From Herminiimonas contaminans (GTDB taxonomy: Bacteria; Pseudomonadota; Gammaproteobacteria; Burkholderiales; Burkholderiaceae_D), in NCBI RefSeq assembly GCF_015645465.1, contig NZ_JADOEL010000002.1, forward strand, positions 124,001-188,000: 64,000 bases of DNA, in the 5' to 3' direction. Position numbers and translations under genes: made by a program. Shown in pieces: positions 17,098 to 21,891 of the stretch. The first letter of the stretch is position 1. The number at the start of each line of letters is the position of its first letter. Below the pieces are notes generated by a model, which saw only the letters and a program-made list of their open reading frames with translations, did not search any database and was not told the origin of the DNA.

Positions 17098-17994
17098 TTA
17101 CATCCCGTCCTGACAAAGCTTCAAAGCTTCATCCCAGCCAGGCAAGCCGCAGAATGTCTGCATAAAGTGTTCACACGATAAGGATGAATTAGCCGGACGT
17201 TTGGCTGGCAACGGATAATCCTGCGTACCTATCGCTGTCAGCCGCGGCTTCTTCGTAACCGATGGATGTTCCAGAATAGCTTGCGTCAAACCATGCCAAC
17301 TAGTCCGCCCTTGCGCGGTCAAGTGGTACAAACCGCCACGACTTTGCCAGACTTCATGGTCCAGTTCGGCATCTGGCTGCGTACCTGAATACCTCTGCAT
17401 CTGTATCAATGCATGCGCTGTCGCCTCAGCTATCGTCCGGCACCAGGTCGGCGCGCCAAACTGATCAGCGACTATGCGCAACTCATCCCGCTCCTGCGCC
17501 AGTCGACGCACGGTCAGCAAGAAATTCTTTCCTCTTGCACCATATACCCAGCTCGTACGCAAAATCAGATGTGGAATCCCTGCAGCCTGTATCGCCTGCT
17601 CACCTGCCAGCTTGCTACGGCCGTAAACACTTTGCGGATTCGGCAAATCGTCTTCGGTATAGCTGTCGGCTTGCGAGCCATCGAACACGTAATCTGTCGA
17701 ATAGTGAATCATCGCAGCGCCCAGCTTACGTGCTTCCTGTGTCATCACTTCGGGCGCTTGCGCATTGATACGCATCGCCAGTTCAGATTCGCTCTCTGCC
17801 AGATCGACCGCGGTATAGGCCGCCGGATTCACAATCAACTGCGGCTTTACTTCACGGATGACAGTACGTACCTGATTCAGGTCGGACAAATCCATATGCG
17901 AACGATCAAGCGCTATCACCTGCCCCAAGCCCTGCAAGGTACGCTGCAGCTCGTAACCGACCTGCCCGCTGCGCCCTGTCAGCAGGATCTTCAA
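17098..17994 (-). CDS. rfbD: dTDP-4-dehydrorhamnose reductase
   Basis: Last step to dTDP-L-rhamnose. SDR fold with N-terminal LLTGRSGQVGYEL and an STDYVFDG segment with the catalytic YGRSK. 298 aa. The start is TTG at 17994, embedded in TTGA with the rfbC stop, so translation is coupled. Last gene of rfbBACD and convergent with the iron-binding protein gene across a terminator. Confidence 0.95.
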   Translation of the reverse strand: MKILLTGRSGQVGYELQRTLQGLGQVIALDRSHMDLSDLNQVRTVIREVKPQLIVNPAAYTAVDLAESESELAMRINAQAPEVMTQEARKLGAAMIHYSTDYVFDGSQADSYTEDDLPNPQSVYGRSKLAGEQAIQAAGIPHLILRTSWVYGARGKNFLLTVRRLAQERDELRIVADQFGAPTWCRTIAEATAHALIQMQRYSGTQPDAELDHEVWQSRGGLYHLTAQGRTSWHGLTQAILEHPSVTKKPRLTAIGTQDYPLPAKRPANSSLSCEHFMQTFCGLPGWDEALKLCQDGM

Positions 17995-18536
17995 GCAAAC
18001 ACCTCGGCCTCTGCCAGGGAAACGCCTTTTTGGTCTTTGACTGACAGCGTGGGCATGCCGTTGATAGGCCAGTCGATGGCAATGGCAGGATCATTCCAGG
18101 CGATGCAGCGCTCGTGTTCAGGCGCCCAATAGTCAGTTGTCTTGTAAAGGAATTCTGCAGTATCGCTGGTGACGACGAAGCCGTGCGCGAATCCTTCGGG
18201 GATCCACATTTGGCGTTTGTTTTCTGCGGATAGGACTGCGCCTACCCATTGGCCGAATGTGGGAGAGCTTTTGCGGATGTCTACGGCTACGTCGAAGACT
18301 GTTCCTGATACTACGCGCACCAGTTTGCCTTGCGATTGCTGTATCTGGTAATGCAAACCGCGCAGTACACCGTGCGCCGATTTGGAGTGATTGTCTTGTA
18401 CAAACCTGACTGTTTTACCTGTGACCTCAGCAAATTTTTTTTCGTTGAAACTCTCAAAGAAAAAACCTCTTTCGTCACCGAAAACTGTCGGCTCTATCAA
18501 TAAAACATCTGGGATTGATGTGGCGATAGCTTTCAT
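17991..18536 (-). CDS. rfbC: dTDP-4-dehydrorhamnose 3,5-epimerase
   Basis: Cupin-fold epimerase acting on dTDP-4-keto-6-deoxyglucose. Conserved RGLHYQ (catalytic His) and IPEGFAHGF segments are present. 181 aa, normal length. It lies 2 nt after rfbA and overlaps rfbD by 4 nt. A more divergent paralog sits in the CDP-sugar cassette at 35199. Confidence 0.96.
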   Translation of the reverse strand: MKAIATSIPDVLLIEPTVFGDERGFFFESFNEKKFAEVTGKTVRFVQDNHSKSAHGVLRGLHYQIQQSQGKLVRVVSGTVFDVAVDIRKSSPTFGQWVGAVLSAENKRQMWIPEGFAHGFVVTSDTAEFLYKTTDYWAPEHERCIAWNDPAIAIDWPINGMPTLSVKDQKGVSLAEAEVFA

Positions 18537-18538
18537 AC

Positions 18539-19429
18539 TTACAGCACTTTATCGTCGAGAATACGCAGCAAGTACTTGCCATAAGCTGTATTTTTCAGCG
18601 GCTCAGCCAATCGCTCCATTTGGCTCGCATTTATGTACCCCTTGCGGAAAGCCGTTTCTTCCGGACAGGCGATTTTCAATCCCTGACGATGTTCGATGGT
18701 AGCAATAAATTGCCCGGCTTCCAGCAAAGACTCGTGCGTGCCGGTATCCAGCCAGGCCATACCGCGCCCCATTAATTCAACATTCAGTTCACCCCGCGCC
18801 AGATAAGCGCGATTTACGTCTGTAATTTCCAGCTCTCCACGTCCGGACGGCAGAATCGATGCAGCGATATCACACACTTGATTGTCGTAGAAATACAGGC
18901 CCGTAACTGCATAATTTGATTTGGGTACTAATGGCTTCTCTTCTATGCTGACAGCTTGATGTTGCGCATCAAACTCAACCACGCCATAACGCTCCGGATC
19001 CTGCACATGATAAGCAAATACGGTTGAGCCCTGGAGACGTTCTGATGCCTGCATCAATTGCCGGTCAAAAGCATGACCGTAGTAGATGTTGTCTCCCAAT
19101 ATCAAGGCCGAAGGATCGTTCCCGATAAAATCACGACCAATGATGAAAGCCTGCGCCAGACCGTCAGGCGAAGGCTGCACTGCATACGACAAGTTAACAC
19201 CCCATTGGCTGCCATCGTTGAGCAACTGTTGAAAACGTGGAATATCTTGCGGGGTAGAAATCAGCAGAATGTCACGTATGCCAGCCAACATCAGGGTCGT
19301 CAGCGGATAGTAAATCATCGGCTTATCGTAGACCGGCAACAACTGTTTGGATATAGCCACGGTCGCCGGATACAAGCGCGCACCAGAACCTCCTGCGAGG
19401 ATAATCCCTTTGCGGTTGCCCGGATTCAT
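18539..19429 (-). CDS. rfbA: glucose-1-phosphate thymidylyltransferase
   Basis: Makes dTDP-glucose from dTTP and glucose-1-phosphate. The nucleotide-binding [16 protein letters not shown] motif is at the N-terminus, with [12 protein letters not shown] further on. The start ATG 19429 overlaps the rfbB stop (ATGA), giving 296 aa, the family length; an in-frame extension upstream would add seven unlike residues. Confidence 0.96.
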
Positions 19430-20424
19430 GGGTGAGTATCCAGATACCACTGCACCGTTTTACGAATTCCGGTATCAAACGCCTCAAGCGGTCTCCAGCC
19501 AAGCTCACGTTCGATTTTGCTTGCGTCTATTGCATAACGGCGATCATGACCAGGACGGTCTGCTACGTACACAATCTGTTGCCTATAGCTTTTGCCAAAA
19601 GCTAATGGCTTCAATTCATCCAATATATCGCATAAGGTAAATACCACATCGAGATTGGTTTTTTGATTTTGCGCACCGATGTTATATGTTTCACCAGGCA
19701 CGCCATCTGCAAGAACCAGACGCAGTGCAGCACAATGATCGCCAACATAAAGCCAATCACGTATCTGCTGCCCGTCACCGTAAATCGGCAAATCCTTTCC
19801 TGCCAGGGCATTCGCTATCATCAACGGAATCAACTTTTCCGGAAAATGATTAGGACCGTAATTGTTGGAACAATTCGTTGTCAGTGTCGGCAGGCCGTAG
19901 GTATGGAAATAAGCACGTACCAAATGATCCGATGCCGCTTTGGAGGCTGAGTATGGACTGTTGGGCGCGTAGGCGGTTGCTTCAGAAAATGGGGCATCGC
20001 CCGCCTCGAGCGAACCATAGGCCTCATCAGTCGAAACGTGCAGGAAACGGAACTGTTCCTTCTCCTGATTTTCCAAGCCAGACCAATAGGCGCGCGCGGC
20101 CTCCAACAGCTTGAATGTTCCGTTGATATTCGTACGGATGAATTCCGCTGGCCCCTGGATAGAGCGGTCCACATGGCTTTCGGCGGCGAAATGCGCAATG
20201 GCTGTCGGCTTGTATGCATTCAGCAAAGCACTCATTTTTTCACCGTCACAGATATCGGCGAGTACAAATGTATGGCGGATATCACCTTTGAGTGACACCA
20301 AATTGTGCAGATTGCCAGCATAAGTCAGCTTGTCAACATTCAATACTGCAGCATTGCCGCGTGCCAGCCAGTCCAACACGAAATTAGAGCCTATAAAGCC
20401 AGCCCCACCAGTGACGAGGATCAT
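19426..20424 (-). CDS. rfbB: dTDP-glucose 4,6-dehydratase
   Basis: First committed step after dTDP-glucose, giving dTDP-4-keto-6-deoxyglucose. Extended SDR with [12 protein letters not shown] at the N-terminus, STDEAYGS, and the catalytic YSASK in [13 protein letters not shown]. 332 aa. First gene of the rfbBACD operon, divergent from the RfaH-like gene across 415 bp. Confidence 0.96.
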
Positions 20425-20518
20425 GATCGCCGCTCACTAGATAAATGATGAGCGACTATTTGAGTGTGTACTTGTGTATGCAAATACATCGTTGTCGTAC
20501 AGAGAAACAAGAATGTTG

Positions 20519-20839: not shown

Positions 20840-21343
20840 ATGAATATGGACTGGTATCTTATCCATACAAAACCAAGACAAGAAAATCGTGCTTTGCAAA
20901 ACCTTGAACAGCAAGGTTATGAGTGCGATTTGCCGACATTGCGAGCCGAAAGATTGCGGCAAGGCATGTTGGAAGTGGCAGATGAGGCATTATTTCCCCG
21001 TTACCTATTTATCCGGCTCGGACAAGGCGATTCTGCCAAGAGCTGGGCCCCGATACGCTCCACCGTCGGCGTCAGCCGCTTGGTAAGCTTTGGCAAGGAG
21101 CCCGCCAAGGTCGCGGAAAGCCTGATTAATTTGCTCCAGGCACAAGAGAACTCAGTCCGAATTGAACCCAAGCGCTTGTATACGGCTGGCGAACGCGTGC
21201 GGCTGACAGAAGGTGCTTTTGCCGGACTCGAAGGCGTTTACCAGATGGCCGATGGCGAACATCGCGCCATGGTGCTCATTGAGTTATTGAGCAAGTCAGT
21301 GACTTTACGCGCCACCACTAACAGCTTGCGAAAAGTCAATTAA
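20840..21343 (+). CDS. rfaH: RfaH-like specialised NusG paralog (transcription antiterminator)
   Basis: A 167-aa protein with an NGN domain (about 1-100, starting WYLIHTKPRQENRALQNLEQ, with FPRYLFIRL) and a C-terminal KOW-type domain (about 112-165, TAGERVRLTEGAFAGLEG). RfaH-type factors are recruited to RNA polymerase at ops DNA and suppress pausing and Rho termination in long operons. Here an ops core lies 131 bp downstream, before the 37-kb polysaccharide operon. The gagagg site 5 nt before the ATG supports the start. It could instead be another NusG subfamily; the ops element favours RfaH-like. Confidence 0.87.
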   Translation: MNMDWYLIHTKPRQENRALQNLEQQGYECDLPTLRAERLRQGMLEVADEALFPRYLFIRLGQGDSAKSWAPIRSTVGVSRLVSFGKEPAKVAESLINLLQAQENSVRIEPKRLYTAGERVRLTEGAFAGLEGVYQMADGEHRAMVLIELLSKSVTLRATTNSLRKVN

Positions 21344-21402
21344 GCCCTTGTCGCTGCTTTACAAAAGGGTTTTCAAAGCTTACCCATTGTGTCAAAATTG
21401 AT

Positions 21403-21431
21403 ACACACTCAGAGGCGTCATTTGAGTGTGT
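21403..21431. repeat. inverted repeat upstream of ops
   Basis: acacactca (21403-21411) and tgagtgtgt (21423-21431) form a perfect 9-bp dyad with an 11-nt spacer. The left arm can also pair in part with tgtgt at 21388-21392, so two mutually exclusive hairpins are possible. A single copy of the right arm with three extra bases (atttgagtgtgt) occurs at 20458-20469. Confidence 0.5.
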
Positions 21432-21473
21432 CACTAGCCACGCCACCAGCGCTTGCCGATCGTAAAACGGCAC

Positions 21474-21484
21474 GGCGGTAGCGT
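21474..21484 (+). promoter_or_regulatory. ops element (RfaH recruitment site)
   Basis: ggcggtagcgt matches the enterobacterial ops core exactly, as I recall it. It sits on the plus strand in the noncoding leader of a long polysaccharide operon and next to an rfaH-like gene. In E. coli, polymerase pauses at ops and the exposed non-template strand recruits RfaH. That this copy works the same way is inference. Confidence 0.8.
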
Positions 21485-21891
21485 GCTTGATTTAGTACAA
21501 AAACAATTAAAGAATCAATCAAAATTCTCCCCCTATCGAAGCCTGCTTTTCACCCCACCCTCATTGCGAGGCCGACGCCTTGTGCAAGCGTCTTTTGCAA
21601 TGTTGACAGTGGTATCATCCTTGGTTTTCTCAATTTGATTCACGTTGCAGCGCTGCAATTCGTACCGAACACGGGCTTACCCGTTAGTCCGAATGTTTTG
21701 ATGCGCTCCGTGCTTGAAATGACAGCCAAGTGCTTGAACGTCCACTTTCCTGAATACCTGAGAGCAAATTATTTCCGCACGATGTGCGTGCGGCGCTCTG
21801 ATTTAATCAGTAAAACTGGCGCAGTGAACAAAGTAGCGCCATTCGGTAGTTTGGGTCTAACCAATCATTGACTTTACAGCTGGGAATAACT

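Follow-up and report, generated by a model that had tools for sequence, protein, structure and literature searches.

The window analysed here is a stretch of 64,000 nucleotides from Herminiimonas contaminans. It carries on its forward strand an rfaH-like gene (20840-21343, 167 codons), whose true start may be at 20846 because the alignment of its relatives begins at residue 3. The product scores 162.6 bits against the NCBIfam profile TIGR01955 (cut-off 144.5) and 134.3 bits against NF006534 (cut-off 124), and by these curated models the open reading frame is an RfaH. It stays below the cut-offs for UpxY (67.2 bits against 100), for LoaP (41.8 bits against 125) and for the NusG model, and the solved structures closest to it are chains of E. 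coli RfaH (E about 3e-24). A Pfam search of the protein returned the NGN domain only, the KOW domain being backed by the full-length RfaH models and by a predicted beta barrel; on these grounds the NusG paralog with both domains, proposed in the first-pass annotation, is upheld. Searching the proteins of the genome with the window RfaH gave two matches, the gene itself and a second one taken to be the housekeeping NusG.

Downstream on the same strand lies the putative target operon, which runs from 21892 (or from the listed TTG start at 21868) to 58787 and comprises 33 open reading frames over about 37 kb, mostly with polysaccharide functions, in agreement with the earlier count of about 33 genes on one strand. 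Among the best matches are nucleotide-sugar enzymes (a TviB-like dehydrogenase, Gfo/Idh, WecB, epimerases and DegT-type aminotransferases), a Wzm/Wzt-like ABC exporter, glycosyltransferases, a PseB/FnlA-like dehydratase, two CDP-glucose enzymes (glucose-1-phosphate cytidylyltransferase and CDP-glucose 4,6-dehydratase) and two amidotransferases, one asparagine-synthase-like and one WbuX-like; in the NCBIfam search four frames of one batch and one of another were without a match. This content suggests a cluster of the O-antigen or capsule type. It is followed by phoR/phoB/phoU/pstB, and the upstream flank, outside the pair of rfaH and ops, is formed by divergent rml-type genes of the dTDP-sugar pathway (17098-20424, reverse strand).

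Between rfaH and the first gene of the operon there is a noncoding leader of about 550 nt (21344-21891, with GTG 21892 taken as the start), and all features described in it are on the forward strand. The 11-mer core of the ops element, GGCGGTAGCGT, occupies 21474-21484 and starts 130 nt past the rfaH stop, which confirms the perfect 11-nt match that had been reported downstream of the paralog; the identity extends further to the 13-mer GGCGGTAGCGTGC (21474-21486). A predicted RNA hairpin, TGCCG-ATCGTAAAA-CGGCA (21454-21472), has a stem of five Watson-Crick pairs and ends one nucleotide (C) before ops (shuffle p 0.044). The U11 pause position lies about 12 nt from the base of this hairpin, close to the distance of the his pause hairpin. 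Both features belong to a JUMPstart-like conserved element of 50 nt (21438-21487, our model R1), of which this is the sole match in the genome at E 0.001. An inverted repeat, ACACACTCA / TGAGTGTGT, is found at 21403-21431, and a 12-nt direct repeat, ATTTGAGTGTGT, stands on both sides of rfaH (20458-20469 and 21420-21431), its second copy overlapping the inverted one; the direct repeat may mark a binding site or form part of a structure in the transcript. A sigma-70 promoter scan found no promoter, and a scan for an intrinsic terminator as a target gave 1 against 1.5 in shuffles, so that no terminator target is claimed.

The 11-mer occurs once in the window against 0.13 expected, at least one copy being present in 11 of 100 shuffles, and the 4.04-Mb genome holds 14 copies against 44 of the pattern read backwards; the bare 11-mer therefore proves nothing. 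Twelve of the other 13 copies overlap stop-to-stop open frames of at least 200 aa in sense or antisense orientation, and the remaining one (C8:147256) is only antisense to a frame of 107 aa. A genome-wide enrichment of the 18-mer with one mismatch was considered and rejected (59 sites, the backward control giving about 70). It is only the position and the full element that discriminate, the bare string does not. Scattering of ops copies over the genome, which had been named in advance as an argument against the pair, is accordingly what the bare 11-mer displays (14 copies) and what the full element does not (one copy).

Recurrence among relatives was followed by protein searches that covered 300 genomes of the order, one named-genome collection and, with a limit of E 1e-20, 369 genomes of the class. 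The combined set comprises 125 rfaH-like genes, 51 from the window, the order genomes and the named collection and 74 from other orders of the class; its rows are not dereplicated by species, second paralogs are retained and some loci are shorter than 1.4 kb. Matches were left out if they spanned no more than about 120 query residues (for instance L093, the second L050 copy and the L068 pieces), and Enterococcus matches of 24-30% identity (L094-L132), taken as housekeeping NusG, were removed before the counts. The exact 12-mer GGCGGTAGCGTG is found within 1.4 kb on the same strand at 43 of the 125 genes including that of the window (39 downstream, 4 upstream; 19/51 and 24/74 in the two subsets), and on the opposite strand, within the same distance, at 0/125. 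Shuffled patterns give means of 0 to 0.025 per category, about 0.05 copies being expected over all same-strand places. All 39 downstream copies fall outside same-strand open reading frames of at least 150 aa, compared with 48% of control positions. Exact ops is absent from the vicinity of the other 82 genes, among them those of close relatives such as L048 (67% identity) and L085. In a FastTree phylogeny of 126 proteins 27 changes of the label "ops-linked" are required (at least eight of them forced by well supported branches), against a mean of 36 in shuffles, one of 500 of which was as low; the pairing is thus scattered over the RfaH tree, yet somewhat clustered.

Several individual loci of the survey may be mentioned in their own right. 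At L085 (6634-6683) the element is retained beside an intact-looking rfaH with the ops core altered, which is perhaps a natural case of loss. One-mismatch forms of ops occur at L254 on the opposite strand and at L224 and L239 on the same strand, none of them among the 43. Three divergent rfaH genes (L070, L074, L077) are followed after 136-197 nt by TGCGGTAGCCTGC in place of ops, which may be another ops type. At L045, L082, L084, L085 and L086 a further rfaH paralog lies about 4.3-4.4 kb upstream of the first; it lacks an exact ops and shares 51-52% identity with the window protein. At L092 ops with the same hairpin occurs twice in one locus (about 6602 and 8064, 1.46 kb apart).

About 35 nt on the 5' side of ops are conserved in close relatives as well, and R1 is a 50-nt covariance model built from 18 such sequences. 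According to our search of 399 genomes of the order, 16 have one match each at E 0.001, the match here being the copy in the window; nine of the 16 had supplied sequences for the model and seven had not, and as the 15 best first-look candidates were scored per genome under strict filters, weaker copies could be missed. An RfaH-like protein is encoded in all 16 (that of G063 is fragmented, and one fragment carries a stop). Among the 300 genomes of the order that were searched by protein, R1 is present in 13 of the 34 with an RfaH-like match over 60 bits (9/13 had supplied model sequences) and in none of the 266 others. With this co-occurrence and with the strand bias (43/125 against 0/125), the view that regulator and site would act as a functional pair, already implied by the first-pass annotation, is strongly supported.

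The gene and the element are adjacent (130-503 nt) in 8 of the 16 genomes, and in G390 they are 1.4 kb apart with an open reading frame between them. In 6/16 the two stand apart: in G339 they are separated by 514 kb on one contig, and in G320, G245, G018, G109 and G063 they are on different contigs, with no rfaH in the 8 kb upstream of the element. Linkage is therefore usual and not obligatory. In G134 (L050) the element comes 14 nt after a truncated second copy of rfaH, the full-length rfaH there having no ops nearby.

Two Agrobacterium plasmids (L195 and L196, 12001-24492) encode an RfaH 63% identical to that of the window before a similar polysaccharide operon with tviB, acyltransferase, DegT, asnB and formyltransferase genes, Gfo/Idh being annotated in one of them. 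No exact ops was found in the four plasmid stretches examined, out of 195 plasmid records with a match. These plasmids support lateral movement of the regulator together with the operon, and of the exact site less so. The earlier idea that the antitermination system travels with the locus stands only in part: the RfaH-operon pairs on plasmids speak for it, the missing exact ops on these plasmids and the six unlinked genomes limit it, and the pairing is scattered over the tree, though somewhat clustered. In L195 and L196 a variant ops, TGCGGTAGCTTG, was spotted by eye in one long gap.

The hairpin requires a separate consideration. In the 18 core elements all hairpin cells pair, yet the sequences vary too little to demonstrate a structure: none of the pairs has both partners substituted, and the covariation score was reached by 190 of 500 shuffles; because covariation inside these elements is uninformative, the hairpin was then assessed on dissimilar sites, which had been selected for exact ops. 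In 30 upstream regions less than 70% alike it ends 0-1 nt before ops in 28 and 3 and 6 nt before it in the others, compared with 31% in shuffles, and the mean energy z-score is -1.6. The ops-side arm forms at least five pairs with its own upstream sequence in 24 of the 30, compared with 29% when sequences are swapped between loci. Taken site by site the difference from shuffles is weak (14 of 16 at p 0.04-0.4, one at 0.003 and one, L185 with two pairs, at 0.95), and the hairpin evidence is strong only for the set of sites as a whole.

Conserved stem-loops have been reported for JUMPstart elements of gamma-Proteobacteria (PMC2864571), and the window likewise has a stem-loop directly before ops. 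The match of the window to the Rfam JUMPstart family RF01707 (21447-21485) reaches 19.9 bits, below the gathering score of 35, and the element would be best described as JUMPstart-like in layout, yet outside RF01707. The near-fixed geometry of hairpin and ops observed here contrasts with the account given in PMC11001881, where the ops-paused complex of E. coli and a hairpin-stabilised one are presented as different things.

E. coli RfaH contacts ops through the side chains of K10, H20, R23 and R73, as described in PMC5995543. At these positions the alignment with E. coli RfaH places K, N, Q and V in the window protein, which retains K10 only and so does not possess the E. coli contact set. These residues are outside the criterion of the curated RfaH models, and their replacement makes it less likely that the protein reads ops in the E. 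coli manner, with no bearing on its scoring as an RfaH. Among the 43 ops-linked genes position 10 is K in 41, position 23 is R in 31, position 20 is N in 35 and position 73 is R in only 10, Q24 and T72 being invariant; at position 70, where E. coli has N, R occurs in 42/43, and also in 79 of the 82 others. As the 82 others are similar, contact residues do not separate ops-linked genes from the rest. The DNA signal stays constant, and the residues that would read it are unlike those of E. coli.

The closed form of RfaH is held by the E48-R138 pair, R138 being one of the autoinhibition residues. Such residues also include E48, I93 and F130 (PMC7593976), and L142 is added to them in PMC13015549. 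The window protein has E, I, Y, R and L at positions 48, 93, 130, 138 and 142, four of the five being identical and F130 replaced by Y. With 24 sequences AlphaFold2 predicted the C-terminal domain to be a NusG-like beta barrel (mean pLDDT 85.4, pTM 0.67), and a further run, on 16 close homologs, was of low quality (mean pLDDT 71.3) and gave no defined C-terminal fold, so one of two structure models favours a NusG-like, non-autoinhibited domain. The top TM-scores of the predicted model are to recruited RfaH (6c6s, 0.74 over 162 columns; 8phk, 0.73 over 168 columns), and free (2oug) and ops-DNA-bound (5ond) RfaH were aligned with it over 114-120 columns.

What the analysis shows is an rfaH gene, an ops site and the hairpin layout, all of them conserved, together with the strand bias and the low copy number; we consider, with a probability of roughly 0.8, that these are best explained by a cis-encoded RfaH/ops antitermination cassette. 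Binding, pausing and antitermination at this leader are modelled on E. coli RfaH: RNA polymerase transcribing the leader would pause at ops, a short RNA hairpin having just formed behind it, RfaH made from the gene directly upstream would bind the exposed non-template ops bases with its NGN domain, remain on the polymerase, exclude NusG and Rho and probably couple ribosomes, and the 37-kb polysaccharide operon would be transcribed to its end. For this reading speak the RfaH cut-offs that were passed, the strand bias, the restriction of R1 to genomes with RfaH and the hairpin layout. Against it count the replacement of three of the four E. coli contact residues, the beta-barrel prediction, the lack of a covariation signal, the 82 genes without exact ops, the six genomes where gene and element are apart, the sigma-70 scan that found no promoter and the statement in PMC13015549 that RfaH relatives predicted to be monomorphic are ops-independent in E. 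coli.

A rival reading is a constitutively open, monomorphic RfaH which loads in cis during translation and does not read ops, so that ops and hairpin provide only a pause for loading or ribosome entry; the predicted beta-barrel domain, most similar to recruited RfaH 6c6s and 8phk, the changed contact residues and the statement in PMC13015549 are in its favour. We regard it as unlikely, given that G4, G5, A7 and G8, needed for recruitment and not for pausing according to PMC5995543, are within the 12-mer preserved at 43/125 genes, that E48 and R138 are retained in the window protein and that in G339 as much as 514 kb lies between element and gene. A hairpin kept despite unrelated sequences and at near-fixed spacing might instead be an RNA antiterminator by itself, to which the adjacency of RfaH is incidental, but the RfaH-like protein in 16/16 element genomes and the many rfaH-linked sites (selected for exact ops) which keep ops with quite different hairpin letters make this very improbable. 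As to a common 11-mer falling after rfaH by chance, the genome does contain 14 copies, which are fewer than in the backward control, and the recurrence at 43/125 genes with complete strand bias, the 39/39 downstream copies outside frames of at least 150 aa and the conservation of 50 nt around ops reduce such a coincidence to a negligible probability.

Beyond the cassette itself, we may tentatively suggest, while holding it rather less probable than the opposite, that many cis-encoded RfaHs, including open (non-autoinhibited) ones, load at ops using a set of residues other than that of E. coli, for instance R at position 70, and that the landing signal has two parts, ops and a nascent-RNA hairpin directly abutting it, of which the hairpin may keep the polymerase in register for recruitment.

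Compared with RfaH/ops of E. coli (waaQ leader), the locus shares an RfaH equivalog, a polysaccharide operon, the identical 13-mer and, as is possible for waaQ too, a hairpin 0-1 nt before ops; it differs in that the gene adjoins the site, that the genome has a single match to the element, that H20, R23 and R73 are replaced and that the hairpin sequence is not that of waaQ. With RF01707 it has in common the ops core, the position upstream of polysaccharide genes and the stem-loop, and it is set apart by its score (19.9 bits versus 35) and by another hairpin sequence. As with UpxY, LoaP and TaA, a NusG paralog is encoded with a long envelope or metabolite operon, though UpxY and LoaP are the models whose cut-offs the protein misses. 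It resembles the predicted-monomorphic beta-RfaH of PMC13015549 in lying beside an LPS-type operon, in missing the E. coli contact residues and, by one of two predictions, in a beta C-terminal domain; unlike that group, treated there as ops-independent, it has an exact ops and a hairpin beside the gene.

The adjacency of NusG paralogs to their target operons is already known, and PMC7593976, where many RfaH clusters are shown to lie beside polysaccharide genes, calls the recruitment of operon-encoded paralogs unknown. A cis mechanism proposed as ancestral is described in PMC7819879, and PMC13015549 proposes that predicted-monomorphic RfaHs adjoin their operons and act without ops; in its accessible text we found no mention of ops beside their genes. 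In mainly open-access papers no description was found of rfaH genes accompanied by an ops next to them. As far as can be seen, three points are new: the hairpin-ops layout reaches into this order, it is linked to an rfaH gene alongside, and its spacing is nearly fixed.

The pairing hints at the way in which such locally encoded regulators locate their target: for a large group of them the locus and its relatives offer a concrete and testable answer, a classical ops next door. They likewise question the need for the E. coli residues, or for autoinhibition, in the reading of ops. Were the tentative suggestion true that open RfaHs too load at ops, autoinhibition and the recognition of ops would be separable, whereas PMC7593976 proposes that the two were acquired together.
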